64,000 nucleotides of DNA from Drouetiella hepatica Uher 2000/2452 (GTDB lineage: Bacteria; Cyanobacteriota; Cyanobacteriia; Elainellales; Elainellaceae). Every line of letters begins with the position of its first letter. Within the stretch, counting starts at the first letter, position 1. The position numbers and the translations under genes are program-made. Below are positions 2,971 to 15,020 of this stretch, piece after piece. Where the stretch lies: the NCBI GenBank assembly GCA_019359505.1, contig JAHHHD010000015.1, positions 62,001-126,000 of the forward strand. The letters are read 5' to 3'. Below the pieces are notes generated by a model. The model was not told the origin of the DNA. It was given only the letters and a program-made list of their open reading frames with translations, and did not search any database.

Positions 2971-3444
2971 ATGACCTTCACTTCTCTCGGCGCAGACAGC
3001 AGTTTCTCCAGCTTAGCTAGCGCTTCGATTAAGTCAACCTCTTTGCTTAAAGGCGGCGCAATAACTACGCTAAGCGCTTCCAAGGCAACGAGAGGTCAAG
3101 CCATCCGCATCACTCGATCGAGCTTTCAAGATGCTGGACGAGTGGGCACTCGCGAAGATGATCCAATATTTTACCGATTCACATTAAATACCCGTACTCC
3201 AGTTCGCCTCTCCACAAGAAATCAGGAGGCTGGCGGTATCTTCAGCGCATTTGTTCCTGAATTGCGGGTTGAGCTACAGCAGAGTAGCGGTAGACGTATC
3301 CGTAGCCAAACAATAGAGGGAGGAGAAATTGAAACTATTACCGCTACCCTAGCTCGTGGTACCTACTTTGTTCGGATTACGAGCGGGGGGCAAAGCGTTC
3401 CCTATCTCCTTGGATTTAGACGTGGCGCTAACTTGTTTAGTTAA
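2971..3444 (+). CDS. Secreted-type protein with pre-peptidase C-terminal-like (PPC) domain
   Basis: The protein has 157 residues and starts at ATG 2971. It opens with a Ser/Ala/Leu-rich segment of about 40 residues without a clear hydrophobic signal core. It is followed by a beta-rich region (DPIFYRFTLNTRTPVRLSTR, then ITATLARGTYFVRITSGG, then PYLLGFR). This strand pattern matches the calcium-linked PPC beta-sandwich commonly appended to cyanobacterial extracellular proteins. Here the domain stands alone. Function is probably structural or binding at the cell surface; the export route is unclear. Homology is inferred from the TYFVRITSG-type strand and is not certain. Confidence 0.6.
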   Translation: MTFTSLGADSSFSSLASASIKSTSLLKGGAITTLSASKATRGQAIRITRSSFQDAGRVGTREDDPIFYRFTLNTRTPVRLSTRNQEAGGIFSAFVPELRVELQQSSGRRIRSQTIEGGEIETITATLARGTYFVRITSGGQSVPYLLGFRRGANLFS

Positions 3445-3796: not shown

Positions 3797-5146
3797 ATGA
3801 ACGATTTCATTCGACGTAGATTTTCAGCTCTGGCGATTCTAGCTTGTGCTGTAGCCCTACTTTTAGGTATCCAGGCAAGCCCCAGCATTTCCCAAACTGC
3901 TCCAGCTCAGCGGCCCATGTGGCAGCCTGCTCAAGGCACCTGGCAGCCCGTTGCTTCTCACCGCGAGGATAGGGGGGCGATTAAAGTCGTCTGGCTAGAA
4001 GGAACGCCTTATGAGATGGGTCGTCAGCACGGCACTTTACTACATGATGAGATTGCTTCAATAGGTAAAGAAGCGATCGAAGCACTGAGTTTTGCAGGTC
4101 GAGGATTGGCGTTGGGGCGGTTGGCTATGCGGCGATCGTTTCCTGATGTGATTGAGGAATGCCGAGGTTTGTCATCTGCGACTCAAGATATTGGTCTGAC
4201 GTTTGATGGCTGCATGGTCTTAGCCTATGGCGACGTGTTTCAAGAGCAATTTGCTTACTTACTACCGCCGATTTTATTCCATGACGGCTGTGCTGGCTTT
4301 GTAGCCTTGGGAGACGCTTCAAGCGATGGTGAGGTCTATCATGCTCGCACCCTGGATAATAATAAAAAGCCGGTCGATTACTGGGTAAAAAATCCAACTG
4401 TTTTCATCCGCCAGCCCAATGATGGAATTCCCCATGTGTTCATCGGTATCCCCGGAGCGGTGTGGCCCAACTCTGGTTTCAATGCCGAAGGCATATCTAT
4501 CTCCTTAGATACCGCACATCCTCGAACCATCGATGACATTTCGCTTAGGGGAGCCAGCAATGTGCAGCTGATGGCGCGGATTATGAAACAGGCTCATAGC
4601 TATGATGAAGCCAAGACGTTGATGAATACTTGGGAACGCGCCCGCGCCAATTTGATCCTGATTGCGGATGGAAAATCTCAACAGGCTGGAGTGTTTGAGA
4701 TTCTTGGTCGAGAGCTGGGTATTCGGGAAATTCGCGACAATGGCACCGTCTACATGACGAATCACTTTGTCGCCCCAGCAACAGCAGGGAAGGATCCTAC
4801 GCCTTCAGGCTCAACGCTGTCTCGGTTCAAGCGTCTAGAGCAACTGCTTGAATCCAACACTCCCTACACAGAGTATGGCAAAGTTGATCCAGAAGTGATG
4901 GTGAAGATTCTGCGCGATCGCACTAATCCCACTACCCTACAATCCAGCCCCTTGACTGTGTTTGACGACGATGTCAGCGTCGGAGGCAACGGCGCACTGC
5001 GGCAGGAGCTATTCGATGACAAGCGGCTGCTTTTTTGGGTGGCAGGTGGCAGTGTTCCAGTGCCCGAAAATCCGTTTGTTTGCTTCTCATTCGGGGAGAT
5101 GATTGGACTGCCGAATGCAGTGCCTTGTTCCACACCTGCGCTTTAA
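3797..5146 (+). CDS. C45 family autoproteolytic acyltransferase/hydrolase
   Basis: The protein is 449 residues. An N-terminal signal peptide (RRRFSALAILACAVALLLGI, cleavage near residue 30-36) sends it to the periplasm or surface. The core has the Ntn-hydrolase pattern of acyl-CoA:6-aminopenicillanate acyltransferase-like (C45) proteins: YEMGRQHGTLL near residue 73, then DGCAGFVALG with the likely nucleophile Cys165 exposed after autocleavage, and EVYHARTLDN shortly after. C45 enzymes cut or transfer amide-linked acyl groups; the substrate here is unknown (peptide, acyl-homoserine lactone or cell-wall amide are options). It ends 13 bp before the tandem DUF1400 gene, so the two probably form an operon. 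Confidence 0.8.
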   Translation: MNDFIRRRFSALAILACAVALLLGIQASPSISQTAPAQRPMWQPAQGTWQPVASHREDRGAIKVVWLEGTPYEMGRQHGTLLHDEIASIGKEAIEALSFAGRGLALGRLAMRRSFPDVIEECRGLSSATQDIGLTFDGCMVLAYGDVFQEQFAYLLPPILFHDGCAGFVALGDASSDGEVYHARTLDNNKKPVDYWVKNPTVFIRQPNDGIPHVFIGIPGAVWPNSGFNAEGISISLDTAHPRTIDDISLRGASNVQLMARIMKQAHSYDEAKTLMNTWERARANLILIADGKSQQAGVFEILGRELGIREIRDNGTVYMTNHFVAPATAGKDPTPSGSTLSRFKRLEQLLESNTPYTEYGKVDPEVMVKILRDRTNPTTLQSSPLTVFDDDVSVGGNGALRQELFDDKRLLFWVAGGSVPVPENPFVCFSFGEMIGLPNAVPCSTPAL

Positions 5147-5159
5147 CCAAGGGAAAGCA

Positions 5160-6533
5160 ATGCTGAACGTTTCACGCATGAAATCAGAATTTATTCAATC
5201 AGTGTTCATCCGGGCTGTAGGGCTGTTGCTTGGGGCGATCGCTAGTCTCTTATGCAGTGTGGGAAGAGCGGATGCCGCCGAGACCGTGATTCTAAATTAT
5301 CTAGACACGCGCATTCCTGTTTCTAATCAAGAGTTTTTAGAGTTTGCTAACGGCACTGAAGTTTCTGACAACTTGCAAGCCTATTTTCAAAAAGTTCCTC
5401 TGACTCCAGACGAAGCTCGTCGTTTGCTGAATGAACCGATCGTTCCTAAGATTAGTCTAAGGCTCAATTCCAACTTAAACGAGTTTCTGGCTCTCCAGCT
5501 CAATCATCTCATGGGCGAACCCTATGGTCGTGAGTCATTGGATGCGTTGGAAACCGTTGTAATCTCCGCGTTGGCAGATGATGATAGCTTTTCGATTCTG
5601 AAGTTAATTGATAAGTATCCAGAGTCAGACGTGAAAGTCTATTTAGGCAGACTCGATCGCGTTCACAGCGATGTCAGCTTGTTTGTGGAACGAGTTCAAC
5701 CCATCTTGCAACAGTCAGATGGATTGCTTGAAGATCTGGTGTGCGATTGCGGAGTCGAGTCGGGACCTGCTCTAATGTCCTCAACGCCAGCTGATTTGCC
5801 TACTGCATCTGCTAAGAAGCTTTTTGAAGCCTATCAGTCCAGCCAAATTGACACTCTTAGTCTTTTGGCTAGCCTGCCAAAATTAAAAGGTTTTCAAGCT
5901 AATTTTTCTAAGCCCATGACTGGAACGATGGCAAGCGCTAGAGCTAAGGAAACTCCGCTACTGGTTCAGGCATCATCCGACTACACTCCTCCTCAGCTAG
6001 CTCAGGAGATAGTGGTTAAGTACGGCCCCTTAAGGCGATCGCTGAGCATCGCCGATTTAACGACCTTAGCGGAGACAGGAAAGCCATCGCGATCGCTCAA
6101 GTCTCTACTCGGACTCGCCAAAGTTTCTCCAGAGAATGTTCAAACGCTGCTCAATCGAAGCGTGAAGGTGGATGCTACCTTCTTGGATAAAAATCTCCGC
6201 AATGTTTTGGGAGAATTTGCTCTGTTTGAAGTGGGTCAGATTGTTCAAACAGGTTCAGGTAAGGCAAATATTCAGGCGCTGCGATCGGCACTGATCCTTT
6301 CAGCCCGTGATGACAATCACGTCACTTTCCTGGAGTTCTTGCAAAACTATCCGCTACCCCAGATGTATGTGGATGGAATGCGGCTAGCTAGACTGGCGCG
6401 TCTGGTCGCAGCCTCCGGTGGAGCTAGAGGGTTAGTTGTTAATGAGGCTCAAAACTTGGAGGACTTTTTAGTGAATGTGCAGGCTGCCATTGCCAAAGAG
6501 GTTTGTAATTGCGAGAACCAACCAGCGGGTTAA
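5160..6533 (+). CDS. Exported protein with two DUF1400 units and no hydrolase domain
   Basis: ATG 5160 follows an AAGGG ribosome binding site and gives 457 residues. Residues about 12-40 form a signal peptide ending SVGRADA. A first DUF1400-like unit covers about 41-190: VILNYLDTRIPVSNQEFLEF, then MGEPYGRESLDALETVV, then KLIDKYPESDVKVYLGRL. A second covers about 290-440: VVKYGPLRRSLSIADLTTLA, then NRSVKVDATFLDKNLRNVLG, then EFLQNYPLPQMYVDGMRLAR. DUF1400 normally sits in front of a cyanobacterial alpha/beta hydrolase, but no GxSxG nucleophile elbow is seen here. A Cys pair (CDCG and CNCEN) follows each unit. It is probably a binding or scaffold protein in the periplasm, co-transcribed with the C45 enzyme. 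Confidence 0.75.
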   Translation: MLNVSRMKSEFIQSVFIRAVGLLLGAIASLLCSVGRADAAETVILNYLDTRIPVSNQEFLEFANGTEVSDNLQAYFQKVPLTPDEARRLLNEPIVPKISLRLNSNLNEFLALQLNHLMGEPYGRESLDALETVVISALADDDSFSILKLIDKYPESDVKVYLGRLDRVHSDVSLFVERVQPILQQSDGLLEDLVCDCGVESGPALMSSTPADLPTASAKKLFEAYQSSQIDTLSLLASLPKLKGFQANFSKPMTGTMASARAKETPLLVQASSDYTPPQLAQEIVVKYGPLRRSLSIADLTTLAETGKPSRSLKSLLGLAKVSPENVQTLLNRSVKVDATFLDKNLRNVLGEFALFEVGQIVQTGSGKANIQALRSALILSARDDNHVTFLEFLQNYPLPQMYVDGMRLARLARLVAASGGARGLVVNEAQNLEDFLVNVQAAIAKEVCNCENQPAG

Positions 6534-6870: not shown

Positions 6871-8433
6871 TTAAAAGCGATCGCCGATCGTGACAATGAC
6901 TTGATTATCCCCATCGTCCGAGATTGCAAACTCCAGTCTGCCCATTCCAAATGGAGATTCAGCATTGAGTCCTATGCCAAAGCCGAAACCATCACCCGGC
7001 TTATCCCGCACTTCGGCAGGTCTGCCGATTACCTCATCGGCTGTACCTAAATCGGTTCCGTAATCGACGAACAGCGATCCTCTTAGCCGAATATTTCGAG
7101 AGAAAACAGCAAAAGAAGTGATAGGAAAACGATACTCAGCAGCGGCTTGAATGAAGCTTGATCCTGTTCCTACTCCCCCTTCATCAAATCCGCGAACAGA
7201 GTGATCTCCTCCAATATTAAAGGCTTCGTAAGGTGGAACATCTCCCAGGATTGTGCCAGCTTGAAGTTGCAAAATTAAAGTTCGAGGCCCCGGAGCAAAC
7301 CCAATAAAATTGACGGGCAGGTATTGAATGAAACTCCCTGATAGCCGCGTGTAAGCCAGTTCATCACCACTGATCTTAAAGCCTTGATCCACCCCGGCGC
7401 GGGCAATGAAGCCATTTGTAGGAAACGTTCTATCGTCCCGCCGATCAAGCAGGGCAGCAAAGTTGAGGGTAATATAGTCATCCACGCCATCATCATCGAT
7501 GGTCAAAGAATTTCCATCTTCATCAGAAGCAAAAACCTTAGAGGTGAATAGCTCGTCGCGCACTGTTACCCGTTGATAGGAAACGCCGATCGCAGAATCA
7601 ATCTGACTCCCTAGCGGCAAGAGTACCTCAACACCTCCAGTCAAGCGATCGATCCAAGGTGTATTTCCGTTGGGTAAATCCAAATCATTATCCCCACCCC
7701 GAAAAGCAGGAAACCAAGACTGCTGGCTAGAGAGATTGACTCCAAATCCACGTCGAGGATCATCGGTAGCGCTAGTGAAGCCGAGATCAAATGCAACGAT
7801 ATGTTCTCCTCCTTCCACCACCAAGTTGAGAGCATTGCCATTGCCTAAGCCTTGATTGAGGCTGACAGCAGCGGCTAAGCCTGTCACTTTGATTGGAGTA
7901 CGTGCAGGTCTAGTGCGGAGGGAGCCTCGCAAAGCCGTTGGATCAAACAGATGAGTGTTAAAGCCAAAGGAGAACGAATCATTTTGTAAATCGGCGGGAG
8001 CAGTCTGCACTTGAGCAAACTGCTCCTCAATCGTGATGGCTTGAGAGAGATCGGCAAACTGTACCGAAGCTACGGTATCAATCTGCCCGTCTGTCTGTTC
8101 AACATCTTGAGTTTCTGGCAGCAAATCTGCGGCTTGAGTCGAAGGGCGATCGAGCAAAATTTCTGCTGTGGGTTGAGGGGGTGTCGCAGCTTGATAGAGA
8201 AGTGGCAATTGAACACCTTGCACTCTAATCTCATGGGTGTCAGCCGCTCCTTTATGATCTGATTCACCAATTAGAACAAGCTCCAGTGGATAATTAGGAG
8301 TTTGCAGCACTTGTTCTGTCTCCATCGACTGTGCCCAACTTGCAGGTGCAAATAGGGAATCCCATAAGATTACTTTTAACAAGCCCGTAGTGAACAAAAG
8401 TACCGATCGATAATAAGCTAAGGGTACTGACAT
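6871..8433 (-). CDS. Omp85/TamA-type outer membrane beta-barrel, no POTRA visible
   Basis: The protein is 520 residues. Residues 1-35 are a signal peptide ending in ASWAQS. Residues about 36-170 are polar and Gln/Thr-rich with no recognisable POTRA repeat. From about 180 on, amphipathic strands alternate with Asp/Gly turns, as in a 16-stranded bacterial surface antigen (D15) barrel. VRGFDEGGVG near residue 420 fits the conserved loop-6 VRGY/F motif, and the chain ends in a strand finishing in Phe (VTIGDRF), the outer membrane insertion signal. Omp85 proteins insert or move proteins or lipids across the outer membrane. It is transcribed away from the TVP38-TamB-like pair, which suggests a TamA-like partner for it. 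Lack of POTRA is a reading by eye. Confidence 0.8.
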   Translation of the reverse strand: MSVPLAYYRSVLLFTTGLLKVILWDSLFAPASWAQSMETEQVLQTPNYPLELVLIGESDHKGAADTHEIRVQGVQLPLLYQAATPPQPTAEILLDRPSTQAADLLPETQDVEQTDGQIDTVASVQFADLSQAITIEEQFAQVQTAPADLQNDSFSFGFNTHLFDPTALRGSLRTRPARTPIKVTGLAAAVSLNQGLGNGNALNLVVEGGEHIVAFDLGFTSATDDPRRGFGVNLSSQQSWFPAFRGGDNDLDLPNGNTPWIDRLTGGVEVLLPLGSQIDSAIGVSYQRVTVRDELFTSKVFASDEDGNSLTIDDDGVDDYITLNFAALLDRRDDRTFPTNGFIARAGVDQGFKISGDELAYTRLSGSFIQYLPVNFIGFAPGPRTLILQLQAGTILGDVPPYEAFNIGGDHSVRGFDEGGVGTGSSFIQAAAEYRFPITSFAVFSRNIRLRGSLFVDYGTDLGTADEVIGRPAEVRDKPGDGFGFGIGLNAESPFGMGRLEFAISDDGDNQVIVTIGDRF

Positions 8434-8771: not shown

Positions 8772-9503
8772 ATGGAACCCTTGAGGTCAAAAACTCGCAT
8801 AGCCAGGTTCTTTAGCTTGCAAAATACGATCGCTCTGCTTGTGCTGGGGGTATGTATTGCAACAGGCATCTGGGTGATTTCGCAGTCCCATATTAACTGG
8901 TCGCAGCCTGAGCAAATTACTCAGCTCATTCAACAGCAAGGCATCTGGGGCGTTCTGTTTTACATTGGCTTTGTGATTGTGGCGATCGTGGTTAGTGTCA
9001 TTCCTAGCACTCCTGCAACGATCGCAGCAGGAGCCATTTGGGGACCCATGACGGCAGGTATCTATGCGGTGATTGGCATCTCTGTAGGCAGCCTGCTTGC
9101 CTATTTTATTGGGCGTACCTTGGGGCGATCGGCAATGCGGGCATTAACGGGGAAAGTCATCTACTTCTCAACGCATCGGGGCGATCGCTACATCGGCTGG
9201 CTAATTTTTGTGGTGCATCTGCTGCCTGTTCTGCCCTATGAATTGATGAGCTATGCGGCAGGAACCTCAGGCATTTCCCTGTCAATTTACGCTAGGTCAG
9301 CATTTTTAGGAATCATTCCCTGTGCATTTCTACTAACATTCATTGGCTCTAGTATCTCAATTGGATTTCCTGTTCTTCTGGCTTTCCTAGGGTTGTTCAT
9401 AACGGTTCTGGCGTTGCTCACTTGGGGAATTAAACGCCACAATTGGCTAGGATTACGAGATGTAATTCGAGTGGAACCAGATCACGATAGTTCACGTCAT
9501 TAG
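8772..9503 (+). CDS. TVP38/TMEM64 (DedA/VTT-like) membrane protein
   Basis: This 243-residue polytopic inner membrane protein has hydrophobic helices near residues 17-36, 60-80, 85-115, 140-165, 175-195 and 200-220. The family signature is present: a re-entrant segment SVIPSTPATIAAGAIWGP followed by GSLLAYFIGRTLGRSA, and later HLLPVLPYELMSYAAG. VTT/DedA-type proteins are linked to phospholipid scrambling or undecaprenyl phosphate recycling, which is family knowledge rather than shown here. It is followed after 24 bp by the TamB-like gene and is most likely co-transcribed with it, which would place a lipid-handling membrane protein beside a lipid-bridge protein. An AGGAG ribosome binding site precedes ATG 8772. 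Confidence 0.85.
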   Translation: MEPLRSKTRIARFFSLQNTIALLVLGVCIATGIWVISQSHINWSQPEQITQLIQQQGIWGVLFYIGFVIVAIVVSVIPSTPATIAAGAIWGPMTAGIYAVIGISVGSLLAYFIGRTLGRSAMRALTGKVIYFSTHRGDRYIGWLIFVVHLLPVLPYELMSYAAGTSGISLSIYARSAFLGIIPCAFLLTFIGSSISIGFPVLLAFLGLFITVLALLTWGIKRHNWLGLRDVIRVEPDHDSSRH

Positions 9504-9527: not shown

Positions 9528-12500
9528 ATGTCGCACTTTAAATATCGGGGTGGTCGGAGAGCAAATCGGCAGCTGGAAGGCAGACAGTGGCTGATCGTTG
9601 GGCTGGGAGCGGGCGGATTTTTAGCGATCGCTGGAGTCGCAGGATCGCAGTGGATTGGGCAGCAGATTCACCAGCAGGTAAACCACCAGCTTCTCCCTAA
9701 AATTGCAGCCGAATTGCAGAGGGCACTCGATCGCCCGGTGCAGCTCGGCGCACTTGAGCGGGTCACACCGATTGGCTTGCGGCTTGGAGCATCCAGTATT
9801 CCTGCCACTGCAAACGATCCCGATGAGATGCGCATCAAAGCTGTCGAAATTCACTTTGATCTAGCTGATGTGCTGCTACACCAGCAGTTGAAGCTTGACG
9901 TGACGCTGATTGAACCGCAAGTCTCTCTAGAACAGAATGCTAAAGGAGATTGGTTAGAGACTGAGCTAAATCTTCAAAGCGGAGATTTTGCGGAAATTAA
10001 GCAAATTCAGATGAAGAATGCCAAAGTAACTTTGATCCCCTTCTTGAGCGATCGAGTTTCGGATACTAATCGTCAACGGACAATGACAGTACTTCCTCTT
10101 CAGGGATCGTTCCAACTTGAAGACGATGAGCATCTCACCCTTAATCTAAGTGGAGCATTTCGACAGGGAAACTGGGGAATCAAAGGGCAGACCAATCTGA
10201 AGACAGAGAAGGTGAGTCTTGCAGTGACCACTCAGAATGTAGAAATTGCACCGTTTGTTTCCTTGCTACCTATCCCGGTAACGGTAGACCAAGGAACGAT
10301 CAGCGGACGTATCCAGATCAATAAATCTTTGCATCAGCCGATCGCGCTACAGGGAGTTGCAGAGATTAAACAAGGCGCCTTGCGAGCAAAAGGTGAGCCA
10401 AATCCTATTTCTGATGTTGCCGGAACTCTGCGCTTTAACGGACAGAAAATTCAGGTACAGCAGGGACATATTCGCTTTGGCAAAATTCCGTTTGATCTGG
10501 GAGGAACGATCGATTTACAACAGGGTTTAGATCTGCGGGCAACCGTGCCGTTTGTCAGCGCTGCCGATTTTATGCAGACTTTTAAGTTAAATCTGCCTTT
10601 TTCGGTGACTGGAGCGCTGAAATCAAAGGATGTTCGCGTTTCAGGAGCCTTTGATCACGTCATCTTTTCGGGAATGGCTGAGGCTGCTCAACCCTTTCAG
10701 ATCGATCGCCTCACCGTTCCAGTAGCGCAAGCACAATTTATTCTGGATAAGGAAACCGATCAGCTCACGCTGAAACAGGTCGAGTTTCTGCCCGACAGCG
10801 GCGGCAAAATTATAGCTAATGCCGACATCACCCTAGAGGACGATCAGGCTCCACTAAAGGTCAACTTGAGTGCAGAACAGCTTTCTGCTGATGCGCTGGC
10901 GCAGCTCTATGGCTTGTCTGAAGTTTTACCGACTGGAACTCTCTCATCTACGAAGTTAGGAAAAATTGAGGCTCAGGCTCAGGTTACTGGAACAGGCGAT
11001 CGACCCAATCTACAGGCTAATTGGCAGCTTCAGGGCGATTATCCAGCTCAAGGACAAGCCATTTGGGCGGATAAGCGACTGAGGGTACAGAATACCTCTC
11101 TGAAGTTTGCAGGCGGGACGATTACTGGAGCAGGGCAGATGATCGAGGGTAAATGGCAGGCACAGATCAACACAACGCCGCTACATCTAGCTGCTGGAAC
11201 TGTGCAGATTGAGGGCACGCTGACCGATCAGAACTGGAACGCGAATATTCAAGGTTCTCAGGTGCAGCTAAAGGCGATCGATCCAGCTCTGCCAGGTATT
11301 CTTGATGGGCAGGTCAAAGTAACAGGTACGCTGAAACAGATATCTGCCAACGCCATAGACGCAGTAGGCACGCTTCAGCTTTCTCAAACCAATATTCTTC
11401 CTCAACCGCTGACCGCAGCATTTCAGTGGGATGGCGATCGACTACACATCATCAATGCTGAAACCCAGAACAGCCATTTGAGCGGTGTCGTTAAGCTCGG
11501 TTTCACCGGAACAAAGCCCACCCTCGAAGCGATGGATCTGGCAGTGCAGATTAGAGAAGACTTGGCAGGTTTAGTAGCTAAATTGCCGAGTGTCTCCAAG
11601 GCTGCCAGTCTCAATGGATTTGCTAGCTTTGACGGACGCTTGACAGGAAACCTGATTGAACCGCATCTCGTAGGGCAACTTCAGGTCGATGGGCTTGCAC
11701 TCAATCAGTTTCAGTTTGAGCCATTGACAGGTGCGGTTCAGTTCACGACAACAGGGTTACAGCTCGACCTCAAAGGATCGCAGGATCGAATTCAAGGCTG
11801 GATCGATCGCCCGTTTCAAACGGTTGCCCTTCAGGTTCAGTCCGATCAGGCAACTCTCCAAGGACGCTACCATCAGGGACAGTTGACCGGAACCGTGAAC
11901 AAACTACCGCTTCAGTCTGTTTACCAGCTCACGCAGGCTTCTCCAGCTATCCAAGGTGTAAATGGTCTGCTGTCGGGGCGGTTCAACTTCAATGCTCTCA
12001 ATACCCATCCGCAGGGAGTCGCAAAAATCAGCGTTACTCAGCCCACAATTGGCACTTCTCAGTCGAATCGTTTAGGGCATGAGCAGGATCAGCTTACGGG
12101 TACGATTCAGTATCGCGATCGGATAGCCACGCTGAACAAGGGCGAGTTCCGGTTAGGCAAAAGTCTTTACCGCTTCAACGGACAGGCTCTCTTGGACAAA
12201 GATCCGCAAATGAGCGCCAGTGTTTCAGTGAGTGAGGGAGAGCTAAGTGACCTCCAAATGGTTTTGGCGGAAATTCAAAAAATTCAGCCTAGTTCAACCC
12301 ATCAGTTGCCCGAACTTGCGTCGTTAAACGGTCGCTTTTCAGGAAATGCTGCTCTGTCTGGCTCACTGCGATCGGGTTTCTCAACCCGCTTTGATATCCA
12401 GGGTCAAGATTGGTCATGGCAACAGCATGGAGTTCGAGAGATCACAGCAAGTGGTCAGTATGATGGACAGCAAGTGGTGATGCATCCGCTACAGCTAAAG

Positions 12501-13304
12501 GGGATAACTTATCCAGATGGTCAAGGCAAAATAATTCAGAATCTAGATACTCAGATTCTGCTGACGGGGAAATATGGCAGTATCAACAACGGACAAATTC
12601 AGCTCACAAATTTACCGCTTGCTGCAATTCAAAAGTGGATGAATGTATCGATGCCATTGGAAGGGAACTTAAGCACTTCTGCAACGGTGACAGGCGACTT
12701 GAACGCAACGGCGATCGGTGGAGATGTTAGCCTTAGCCAACTTCGAGTGAAGCATATCCCTCTTCCCGAAACCCATTTGGGATTTCAATATCAGCACGAT
12801 CGCTTAAAAATTACGAGCCTAAACGCTACTCGTAATTCCCCTTCCTTTCAGAACTCTTTAGTAGCTCCCCCCTCTGATGCTGTGGGAGCAGAAAAGTTCT
12901 ATTTTGCAGTCAGCGCGATCGACTTTACGCTGCCTGTAGAAACGCTGCAAACTTACGTTGATTCAGGAGAGATAACCAGTCCACTGGGATTCTACGCTCA
13001 ATTTCTGGATGAACAGACCTTGCAGAATATGCGATCGGCGCTGCAATACCCGCTGGATGTCAGCTCTGTTGAGGTCGCTGAGATCCTTAACTCATCGACA
13101 GGGGATGCGTGGCTGTTCTGGTTGGGAGAATTCATTCAAACAAAATCAGGTGAAAATGGTCAGGTTGCCATTGAAACTGCTTTGGTTGAAGCTGCAAAAG
13201 CCAAGCCCAAAAATGTCACGCTCATGGACGTGTTACACCATTTCCCCATCCAGAAAGTTCGCATTAATACGGGGGCTGTGATGAAGCTACTGCGATCGAA
13301 ATAG
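9528..13304 (+). CDS. TamB/AsmA-like envelope protein with C-terminal DUF1400
   Basis: The protein is 1258 residues. A single N-terminal membrane anchor (WLIVGLGAGGFLAIAGVAGS, about 22-42) is followed by the cyanobacterial TamB opening LQRALDRPVQLGALERVTPI and LIEPQVSLEQNAKGDWLETE. Long beta-strand repeats (Gly-x-Ile/Leu-x, as in TamB/AsmA grooves) run to about residue 1080. The usual TamB C-terminal domain is not seen. Residues about 1121-1258 instead match DUF1400: FYFAVSAIDFTLPVETLQTY, then QYPLDVSSVEVAEILNS, then TLMDVLHHFPIQKVRINTG. The 1258 residues are short for cyanobacterial TamB. TamB-like proteins bridge inner and outer membranes for phospholipid or outer membrane protein traffic. 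It is in an operon with TVP38 and near a POTRA-less Omp85. Confidence 0.8.
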   Translation: MSHFKYRGGRRANRQLEGRQWLIVGLGAGGFLAIAGVAGSQWIGQQIHQQVNHQLLPKIAAELQRALDRPVQLGALERVTPIGLRLGASSIPATANDPDEMRIKAVEIHFDLADVLLHQQLKLDVTLIEPQVSLEQNAKGDWLETELNLQSGDFAEIKQIQMKNAKVTLIPFLSDRVSDTNRQRTMTVLPLQGSFQLEDDEHLTLNLSGAFRQGNWGIKGQTNLKTEKVSLAVTTQNVEIAPFVSLLPIPVTVDQGTISGRIQINKSLHQPIALQGVAEIKQGALRAKGEPNPISDVAGTLRFNGQKIQVQQGHIRFGKIPFDLGGTIDLQQGLDLRATVPFVSAADFMQTFKLNLPFSVTGALKSKDVRVSGAFDHVIFSGMAEAAQPFQIDRLTVPVAQAQFILDKETDQLTLKQVEFLPDSGGKIIANADITLEDDQAPLKVNLSAEQLSADALAQLYGLSEVLPTGTLSSTKLGKIEAQAQVTGTGDRPNLQANWQLQGDYPAQGQAIWADKRLRVQNTSLKFAGGTITGAGQMIEGKWQAQINTTPLHLAAGTVQIEGTLTDQNWNANIQGSQVQLKAIDPALPGILDGQVKVTGTLKQISANAIDAVGTLQLSQTNILPQPLTAAFQWDGDRLHIINAETQNSHLSGVVKLGFTGTKPTLEAMDLAVQIREDLAGLVAKLPSVSKAASLNGFASFDGRLTGNLIEPHLVGQLQVDGLALNQFQFEPLTGAVQFTTTGLQLDLKGSQDRIQGWIDRPFQTVALQVQSDQATLQGRYHQGQLTGTVNKLPLQSVYQLTQASPAIQGVNGLLSGRFNFNALNTHPQGVAKISVTQPTIGTSQSNRLGHEQDQLTGTIQYRDRIATLNKGEFRLGKSLYRFNGQALLDKDPQMSASVSVSEGELSDLQMVLAEIQKIQPSSTHQLPELASLNGRFSGNAALSGSLRSGFSTRFDIQGQDWSWQQHGVREITASGQYDGQQVVMHPLQLKGITYPDGQGKIIQNLDTQILLTGKYGSINNGQIQLTNLPLAAIQKWMNVSMPLEGNLSTSATVTGDLNATAIGGDVSLSQLRVKHIPLPETHLGFQYQHDRLKITSLNATRNSPSFQNSLVAPPSDAVGAEKFYFAVSAIDFTLPVETLQTYVDSGEITSPLGFYAQFLDEQTLQNMRSALQYPLDVSSVEVAEILNSSTGDAWLFWLGEFIQTKSGENGQVAIETALVEAAKAKPKNVTLMDVLHHFPIQKVRINTGAVMKLLRSK

Positions 13305-13413: not shown

Positions 13414-14967
13414 TCATTCCACATTAATTGTCCCGTAGATATCCGCATTATCGATCGATGTTTGTCCTGCATCAGAGGCAGTATTTTTTACGAACTGCGG
13501 CAGTTGCTTGAAAGAGATGACTTTGGGTGAAGGTAACGTTCCTATCTGTTCCATCAAATCTTCAGTGACCATGAAGATTGCGCCTCCTTTACCCTGTCCT
13601 GCACTCATTCCAGTTCCGCCAATAGCTCTATTATGCTCAAACAGAGTCTCCCTCAAAATGAGACGACCGGATTTGATAAAAATTGCGCCGCCAAATCCCC
13701 CACCGCTGCCGCCAAATCCCAGACCGCCCGCACTGCCGCCAAATCCGCCTTGACCGGGATTTCCAGCATTACCTATCGTTCCCCCTGTGCCGCCAAATCC
13801 TCCTGAGCCGCCGCCGCCCCCAAAGCCGCCGTCGCCGCCATCACCGCCGTTACCACCGTTCGCCATCTCAGGAGAAGTATTGCCGCCGTTGCCGCCGTTG
13901 CCCGCATTTCCAAACCCGCCAAATCCGCCGCCACCGCCAAAGGCAACTGTCCCAATGCCGCCTTGATTCTCCCAAAGTCCAAAGCTACCAAAGATTCCCA
14001 CGCCGCCATTGCCGCCGTTTCCACCGTTGCCGCCGTTTCCACCGCTCACCCCTGCATTGCCGCCATTGCCGCCGTTACCCGCGTTCCCAAATCCGCCAAA
14101 TCCGCCGCCACCGCCAAAGGCAATACTGCCGATGCCCCCGATGCCAATACCGTTTACCCCTGCGATCGCTCCTCGATTCGCCCACAGTTTATCGTTATGC
14201 GTGTCAATGGTAATCGGGCTGGTTTTTGTAGATGAGGGATCTAGCGTCAAGCTAACGCCATTCACGCCCAGGATTGCCCCTCGATTGACCTTCAATTTAC
14301 TTTTGCTAGTTTGGATGCTGGGCTTAACATCCTGAAGGCTAGGCTGAAGCTCAGCCTGTCTTGTCTCAGCCTGCTGCATCTCACCCTGCTGACTATCGGT
14401 GCTGCGATAGGCTCCCTCTCCACCGATCGCCTGATTGTTTACAAATCTAACGGTGTTGAGCGTGACCCTGCCTTGGCTAATAAATAGTCCACCGCCCATT
14501 CCTGCGGAACCCCCTGCGCCATTTTGTCCGCTGCTGCCTTGAGCTAAGCCATCGGCGATCGTCAGGTGGCTCAGAGTCACGTCTCCTCGTTCGACATACA
14601 GGACTTGATGGGCGTGATTGCCGCTGATGGTATCGTTACCATCACCCACAATCCTCAAATTACGGGTGATTTTAGGTAAAGGACTGCTAAGCGCGATCGC
14701 GCCGCTGACTCCGCTAAGATCAATTAAATTATCATCTGGATACTCATTAGCTTGGTCGATCGCCCAACGCAGTGAGCCAACTCCGCTATTCGCAGTATTC
14801 GTGACTCGAATCAGTTTAGAACCAGCTACCTCAGCATTGAGATGAATATCAGCAAAAGCCTCTGTGGTAATGAGGCAGCTAGCGCCCAGAGTCAGGCAAG
14901 CTAACGGCAAAATAATAGACCCTAAATATTTCAGAACGTTGAACAGTAGGCGATGAACTAGATTCAT
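13414..14967 (-). CDS. Glycine-rich exported protein with beta-helix start
   Basis: ATG 14967 is chosen over an upstream TTG because it gives a clean signal peptide (FNVLKYLGSIILPLACLTL, ending at TEAFADIHL). The product is 517 residues. Residues about 45-170 look like a right-handed beta-helix of surface proteins: GSLRWAIDQAN, then DLSGVSGAIALSSPLP, then GDVTLSHLTIADGLAQGS. Residues about 270-445 are PGRS-like with GGNGGNGG and a duplicated unit FGGGGGFGGFGNAGNGG. Two NRGAI-GVNG units precede it. The C-terminal part returns to beta-helix (FGGAIFIKSGRLILRETLFE). It is probably a cell-surface or S-layer-associated structural protein. The gene is convergent with the TamB-like gene. The GC-rich repeats favour slippage. 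Confidence 0.7.
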   Translation of the reverse strand: MNLVHRLLFNVLKYLGSIILPLACLTLGASCLITTEAFADIHLNAEVAGSKLIRVTNTANSGVGSLRWAIDQANEYPDDNLIDLSGVSGAIALSSPLPKITRNLRIVGDGNDTISGNHAHQVLYVERGDVTLSHLTIADGLAQGSSGQNGAGGSAGMGGGLFISQGRVTLNTVRFVNNQAIGGEGAYRSTDSQQGEMQQAETRQAELQPSLQDVKPSIQTSKSKLKVNRGAILGVNGVSLTLDPSSTKTSPITIDTHNDKLWANRGAIAGVNGIGIGGIGSIAFGGGGGFGGFGNAGNGGNGGNAGVSGGNGGNGGNGGNGGVGIFGSFGLWENQGGIGTVAFGGGGGFGGFGNAGNGGNGGNTSPEMANGGNGGDGGDGGFGGGGGSGGFGGTGGTIGNAGNPGQGGFGGSAGGLGFGGSGGGFGGAIFIKSGRLILRETLFEHNRAIGGTGMSAGQGKGGAIFMVTEDLMEQIGTLPSPKVISFKQLPQFVKNTASDAGQTSIDNADIYGTINVE

Positions 14968-15020
14968 AATCGCTAATCCTGCCAGGATTAGATTTTCAAA
15001 CAGCTGATTATTCAAACATC

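Follow-up and report, generated by a model that had tools for sequence, protein, structure and literature searches.

Gene content of the locus

The stretch of DNA analysed here (the window) comprises 64,000 nucleotides of the genome of Drouetiella hepatica Uher 2000/2452 (contig JAHHHD010000015.1, positions 62,001 to 126,000). It contains, at 9528-13304, an intact open reading frame of 1258 residues that joins a TamB-like groove protein to a DUF1400 domain. The original prediction had located this gene 24 bp behind a TVP38/DedA-type gene, and indeed its start lies 24 bp past the stop of the VTT/DedA gene at 8772-9503. The relevant features are as follows.

3797..5146, + strand: C45-type autoproteolytic acyltransferase/hydrolase, a possible local associate (NF040521, E 3.2e-39)
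5103..6533, + strand: secreted protein carrying DUF1400 twice, at residues 55-183 and 296-427 (PF07176 in two stretches, E 4.9e-51)
6871..8433, - strand: Omp85 barrel without POTRA match, probably outside the module (PF01103, E 9.2e-48)
8772..9503, + strand: DedA/VTT-domain membrane protein of 243 aa (PF09335, E 5.9e-23)
9528..13304, + strand: fusion of a short TamB-like protein and DUF1400, 1258 aa (open reading frame, TamB similarity, orthologues in genomes G391 and G410)
9588..9659, + strand: hydrophobic N-terminal signal anchor of the fusion, about residues 21-44 (hydropathy peak of 1.87 at residue 21-22)
9582..12827, + strand: TamB-type groove region of the fusion, residues 19-1100 (alignment with canonical TamBs and short paralogues)
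12888..13268, + strand: DUF1400 domain of the fusion, residues 1121-1247 (PF07176, E 2.8e-29; mostly helical in the AF2 model)

The Omp85 protein has a Toc75-like match (TIGR00992, E 1.3e-46) and an N-terminal extension of 170 residues. It was considered as the outer-membrane partner of the fusion and discarded as such, since its relatives are found in many genomes of the family that have no short TamB and it is absent from the surroundings of the other fusions. Two further proteins of the window could not be assigned to a clear Pfam family. One is a 157-aa protein (2971-3444) without a Pfam match that is kept, in rearranged order, beside the fusion in G391; the other is a glycine- and asparagine-rich repetitive protein encoded on the minus strand at 13414-15015.

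Anatomy of the fusion protein

The original prediction had described a TamB-like groove protein that ends in DUF1400 and lacks the TamB C-terminal domain, and these observations are confirmed. Residues 19-1095 align with canonical TamB (E 5.5e-126; 28% identity to the TamB of the same genome), and the anchor (hydropathy peak, residues 21-40) aligns with the anchors of the canonical TamBs. DUF1400 is the sole Pfam family found in the protein, the match covering positions 2-127 of the 127 in the profile at 102.4 bits against a cut-off of 23.4; PF04357, the TamB C-terminal domain, has no match anywhere in the chain even at E <= 1. No alpha/beta hydrolase domain follows DUF1400, and the chain stops 11 residues past the domain. 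Four stretches of the protein match NF047952, the NCBIfam model for TamB (E 7.3e-14), yet the score of 50.6 bits stays far below the equivalog cut-off of 825. Judged by this model, the fusion protein is thus a relative of TamB and not a standard TamB. An AF2 model of residues 700-1258, made from two sequences and to be read for secondary structure only (pLDDT 43.8), gave a beta meander with crossing helices.

A search with the whole protein against 36 genomes of the same GTDB family yielded full-length fusions with 44-45% identity in G391, of the same genus, and in G410, of another genus. Therefore, the fused reading frame is real and no assembly or frame artefact.

A separate branch of short TamB proteins

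PF04357 is matched only once in the genome, by the product of an ordinary TamB gene (1664 aa) that lies on a different contig. The fusion protein is a TamB paralogue, and the normal TamB of the cell is encoded elsewhere. Past the position of fusion residue 1095 the canonical protein continues for some 540 residues, the last ~394 of which form PF04357. In eight more genomes of the family a TamB-like protein of some 1190-1340 aa is encoded, two of these being truncated by contig ends; it stops at the point where DUF1400 starts in the fusion. A profile of the short TamBs, run against 390 genomes of the class, added G438 from another family and brought the total to 12 genomes in two GTDB families, a minimum, since no more than two candidates were scored in each genome. 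No short TamB was found in the three order-mates of G438. The fusion to DUF1400 occurs in three of the 12 genomes, belonging to two genera.

A maximum-likelihood tree of the region shared by 24 proteins, rooted at the midpoint, separated the short and fused proteins from the canonical TamBs with a support of 100/100, and placed the three fusions in one clade with the same support. An HMM built on the C-terminal 400 residues of four canonical TamBs found no match in the short proteins. Nor did the model find a remnant in the six frames of the 3 kb downstream in ten of the 12 loci, the remaining two (G393 and G398) being cut at contig ends. The short relatives that are not fused to DUF1400 also lack the C-terminal domain. 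On this comparison, the loss of the domain is common to the short branch and a separate event from the fusion. The original view of a C-terminus replaced by DUF1400 therefore stands in part: the TamB C-terminal domain is missing and DUF1400 occupies the end, but it does so on a shortened paralogue next to a full-length TamB elsewhere in the genome, and the same domain is missing where no fusion took place.

Conservation of the gene neighbourhood

The link with DedA is conserved, the gene adjoining the short TamB in 10 of the 12 loci, but in most genomes DUF1400 is encoded by a separate divergent gene. More specifically, in G389 and the three fusions DedA lies directly upstream of the short TamB with both genes on one strand, whereas in the six other loci the divergent DUF1400 gene sits between the two. 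A stand-alone DUF1400 gene of 183-219 aa is the divergent neighbour of the short TamB in eight genomes (G396, G395, G394, G393, G397, G414, G398 and G438), so that DUF1400 is fused or an immediate neighbour in 11 of the 12 loci and neither in one. If some 5500 genes include about nine for DUF1400, chance alone would place one directly beside the short TamB in roughly 0.3% of genomes, an estimate to be read with the common descent of the loci in mind, which makes them not independent. An all-against-all comparison of the genes of the 12 loci (about 4-22 kb each) showed that every other gene family is limited to at most five genomes, these five being of a single genus. As the other surrounding genes vary between loci, the conserved unit is DedA, DUF1400 and the short TamB. 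DedA and the fusion share a strand and are separated by 24 bp, which by itself is no proof of co-transcription.

The DedA protein

The gene at 8772-9503 matches PF09335 (VTT) at 82.1 bits against a cut-off of 33.9. Among the 390 genomes the 12 highest DedA scores (364 bits and up, the next being 328) fall precisely in the 12 genomes that have a short TamB; the profile was built from ten of these genomes and the independent cases are G393 and G438. The alignment of ten DedA sequences shows that the tip of the first re-entrant region (IPSTPxTIAAG) has no acidic residue and that the second (HLxPxLPYDLxSYGAG) has no Arg or Lys. According to PMC10127716, the absence of these acidic and basic residues is typical of COG0398, putative phospholipid scramblases, as opposed to the UndP flippases. 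Moreover, the model for UptA, the UndP flippase of the UptA/COG0586 type, scores 19.8 bits against 250. By inspection of these motifs, rather than by a tree, the protein is probably COG0398-like and devoid of the features of UndP flippases.

The second-tier DedA relatives in other cyanobacterial families (L147-L151, L159, L169-L173) lie near multicopper oxidase and BNR/Ycf48-like genes; neither TamB nor DUF1400 was seen beside them. In G438 the DedA gene is followed by a pyruvate kinase gene.

Origins of the DUF1400 domains

Nine DUF1400 matches occur in the genome. Where it is found otherwise, here and in related genomes, the domain precedes PAF-AH/PETase-like hydrolases. In a tree built from 133 columns of 57 domains, whose bootstrap had not fully settled, the three fused domains form a group (100/100) that lies in a branch of 42, most of them from DUF1400-hydrolase proteins (97/84). 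Their nearest row is a protein of G393 in which DUF1400 is followed by an alpha/beta hydrolase (81/90). The stand-alone neighbours group with domain 2 of the two-domain protein at 5103-6533 (92/81). Since the fused domain falls in another branch than the neighbours, DUF1400 joined the short-TamB system at least twice, as a neighbour gene and as a fused end derived from the hydrolase branch. On the same tree, an origin of the fusion from the adjacent DUF1400 gene (a Rosetta-stone reading) is rejected.

The gene at 5103-6533 also adjoins the fusion in G391. Its product has a signal peptide by inspection, the true start probably being an ATG within the open reading frame, and its domain 1 is very divergent (long branch). 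Elsewhere in the genome (C66; L097 8226-9712, about 28-30 kb) two tandem stand-alone DUF1400 genes lie beside an Opp-type ABC permease.

The AF2 model of DUF1400, made from three window sequences, is compact and mainly helical (pLDDT 72.5, pTM 0.67). Comparison with solved structures gave nothing clear (Foldseek best E 1.4; VIA best Z 4.1; HdeA Z 3.0), and a sequence search of the PDB gave no match. A literature search, for which subscription journals were mostly out of reach, yielded no function for the domain.

Discussion

TamB and AsmA proteins share a chorein-N domain with VPS13 and ATG2 and are predicted to form lipid-transfer grooves (PMC6791001). In the case of ATG2, the N-terminal chorein part binds the VTT proteins TMEM41B and VMP1 (PMC8976877). 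TamB itself has been defined by a signal anchor, a beta-helical structure and a C-terminal DUF490 domain (PMC4494059), and it is this last domain that binds the POTRA domains of BamA/TamA (PMC11361582).

Starting from the observed anatomy, gene linkage and trees, we infer lipid transport, a scramblase activity of DedA and a role for DUF1400 in it. The conserved unit may constitute a dedicated second envelope lipid-transfer system, made of an anchored groove, a DedA scramblase and a DUF1400 distal end in place of POTRA docking; we advance this reading tentatively, at close to an even chance. By analogy with what has been proposed for AsmA/TamB proteins, the groove would take up lipid tails at the inner membrane and conduct them through the periplasm. 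DedA, located beside its anchored end, would move or equilibrate the lipids of the inner membrane as TMEM41B/VMP1 do for ATG2. DUF1400, periplasmic and helical, would form the distal end and contact the target membrane, be it the outer membrane or the thylakoid, the cargo lipid or a partner. Counted against lipid transfer are the location of the DedA gene on another contig in G393 and G438, and the locus of G389, which has DedA and no DUF1400 within the stretch examined. The further proposal that the unit is a bacterial counterpart of ATG2-TMEM41B/VMP1, in which a DedA scramblase and a TamB-derived groove are encoded together and a POTRA-independent DUF1400 end was joined twice independently, is possible but on balance doubtful. 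The prediction of a variant transport bridge is thereby partly supported.

A short TamB could also act in protein folding, as a chaperone-like periplasmic scaffold for special outer-membrane or secreted proteins, in the way TAM serves autotransporters. In that case DUF1400 would bind the client or an Omp85 barrel, and DedA, a neighbour, would affect nothing but envelope energetics. TamB has been linked to the assembly of outer-membrane proteins (PMC11341756, PMC11014939), and in the window the POTRA-less Omp85 gene precedes DedA by 338 bp, another Omp85 gene lying near the short TamB of G389. However, just these two of the 12 loci have an Omp85 gene nearby (a third has a partial match) and relatives of it are also present in genomes lacking a short TamB, the part that is missing from the short proteins is exactly the domain that contacts the POTRA domains of BamA/TamA, and it is DedA that is kept in most loci, which together render a folding function unlikely. 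Alternatively, the groove may feed hydrolases. DUF1400 would then be the substrate-presenting or membrane-binding part of periplasmic lipases, and the short TamB would supply DUF1400 hydrolases or the C45-type hydrolase with lipids or hydrophobic esters, which would be turned over and not used for membrane growth. The usual position of DUF1400 ahead of hydrolases and the descent of the fused domain from their branch, with a DUF1400-hydrolase as its nearest relative, are in line with such a device, as is the C45 gene near the fusion in the own genome and, in rearranged order, in G391. Nevertheless, none of the other ten loci has the C45 gene, the 12 loci share no conserved hydrolase gene, and both the fusion and the stand-alone DUF1400 neighbours are without a hydrolase domain, so that we consider hydrolase feeding improbable as well.

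The patchy spread over 12 genomes, the fusion in just three, and the presence of a full TamB might be taken to indicate a decaying duplicate that gained DUF1400 by chance and kept its neighbours by descent only. The short TamBs, however, have long open frames with 31-45% identity and > 70 invariant columns, and they retained the same partners in two GTDB families while the other neighbours changed, which makes decay very improbable.

Lipid transfer remains the reading that we favour. It bears on two questions about bacterial bridges, namely the source of their lipids at the inner membrane and the means of docking at the other end. A small set of genes that stay together despite changed surroundings ties a VTT protein to a TamB-type groove without the POTRA-docking end; it makes the DedA-bridge pairing directly testable and provides the first functional context found for DUF1400.

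In comparison with TamB (PF04357/DUF490; TAM/BAM-TamB), the fusion has the signal anchor and a long groove region, which over about 1080 residues is 26-29% identical to canonical TamBs from its GTDB family. It differs in lacking PF04357, in forming a separate clade that coexists with canonical TamB, in having DUF1400 at or beside its end and in its DedA partner. The AsmA-superfamily bridges YhdP, YdbH and AsmA are likewise lipid-groove proteins without the TamB C-terminal domain, but the short TamB is nearer to TamB by sequence and has another C-terminal end; no linkage of these bridges to DedA genes was found in the literature covered. All three have been proposed to be phospholipid bridges (PMC6791001). 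The cyanobacterial DUF1400 (PF07176) alpha/beta-hydrolases include the fused domain in their branch, whereas in the fusion the hydrolase part is absent, and DUF1400 does not precede a hydrolase but closes a groove protein at its C-terminus. With ATG2/VPS13 and VMP1/TMEM41B the unit shares the combination of a chorein-type groove and a VTT-domain membrane protein, the cyanobacterial pairing being known from gene linkage alone. Our literature search, with subscription journals again mostly beyond it, found no bacterial DedA-bridge gene pair. The accessible part of PMC10127716 speculates that DedAs of COG1238 pair with AsmA bridges, mirroring ATG2, and reports no gene linkage. Both that proposal and ours would have a DedA protein hand lipids to an AsmA-type bridge; the pair described here differs in that the DedA is COG0398-like and that its gene linkage to the bridge is conserved.
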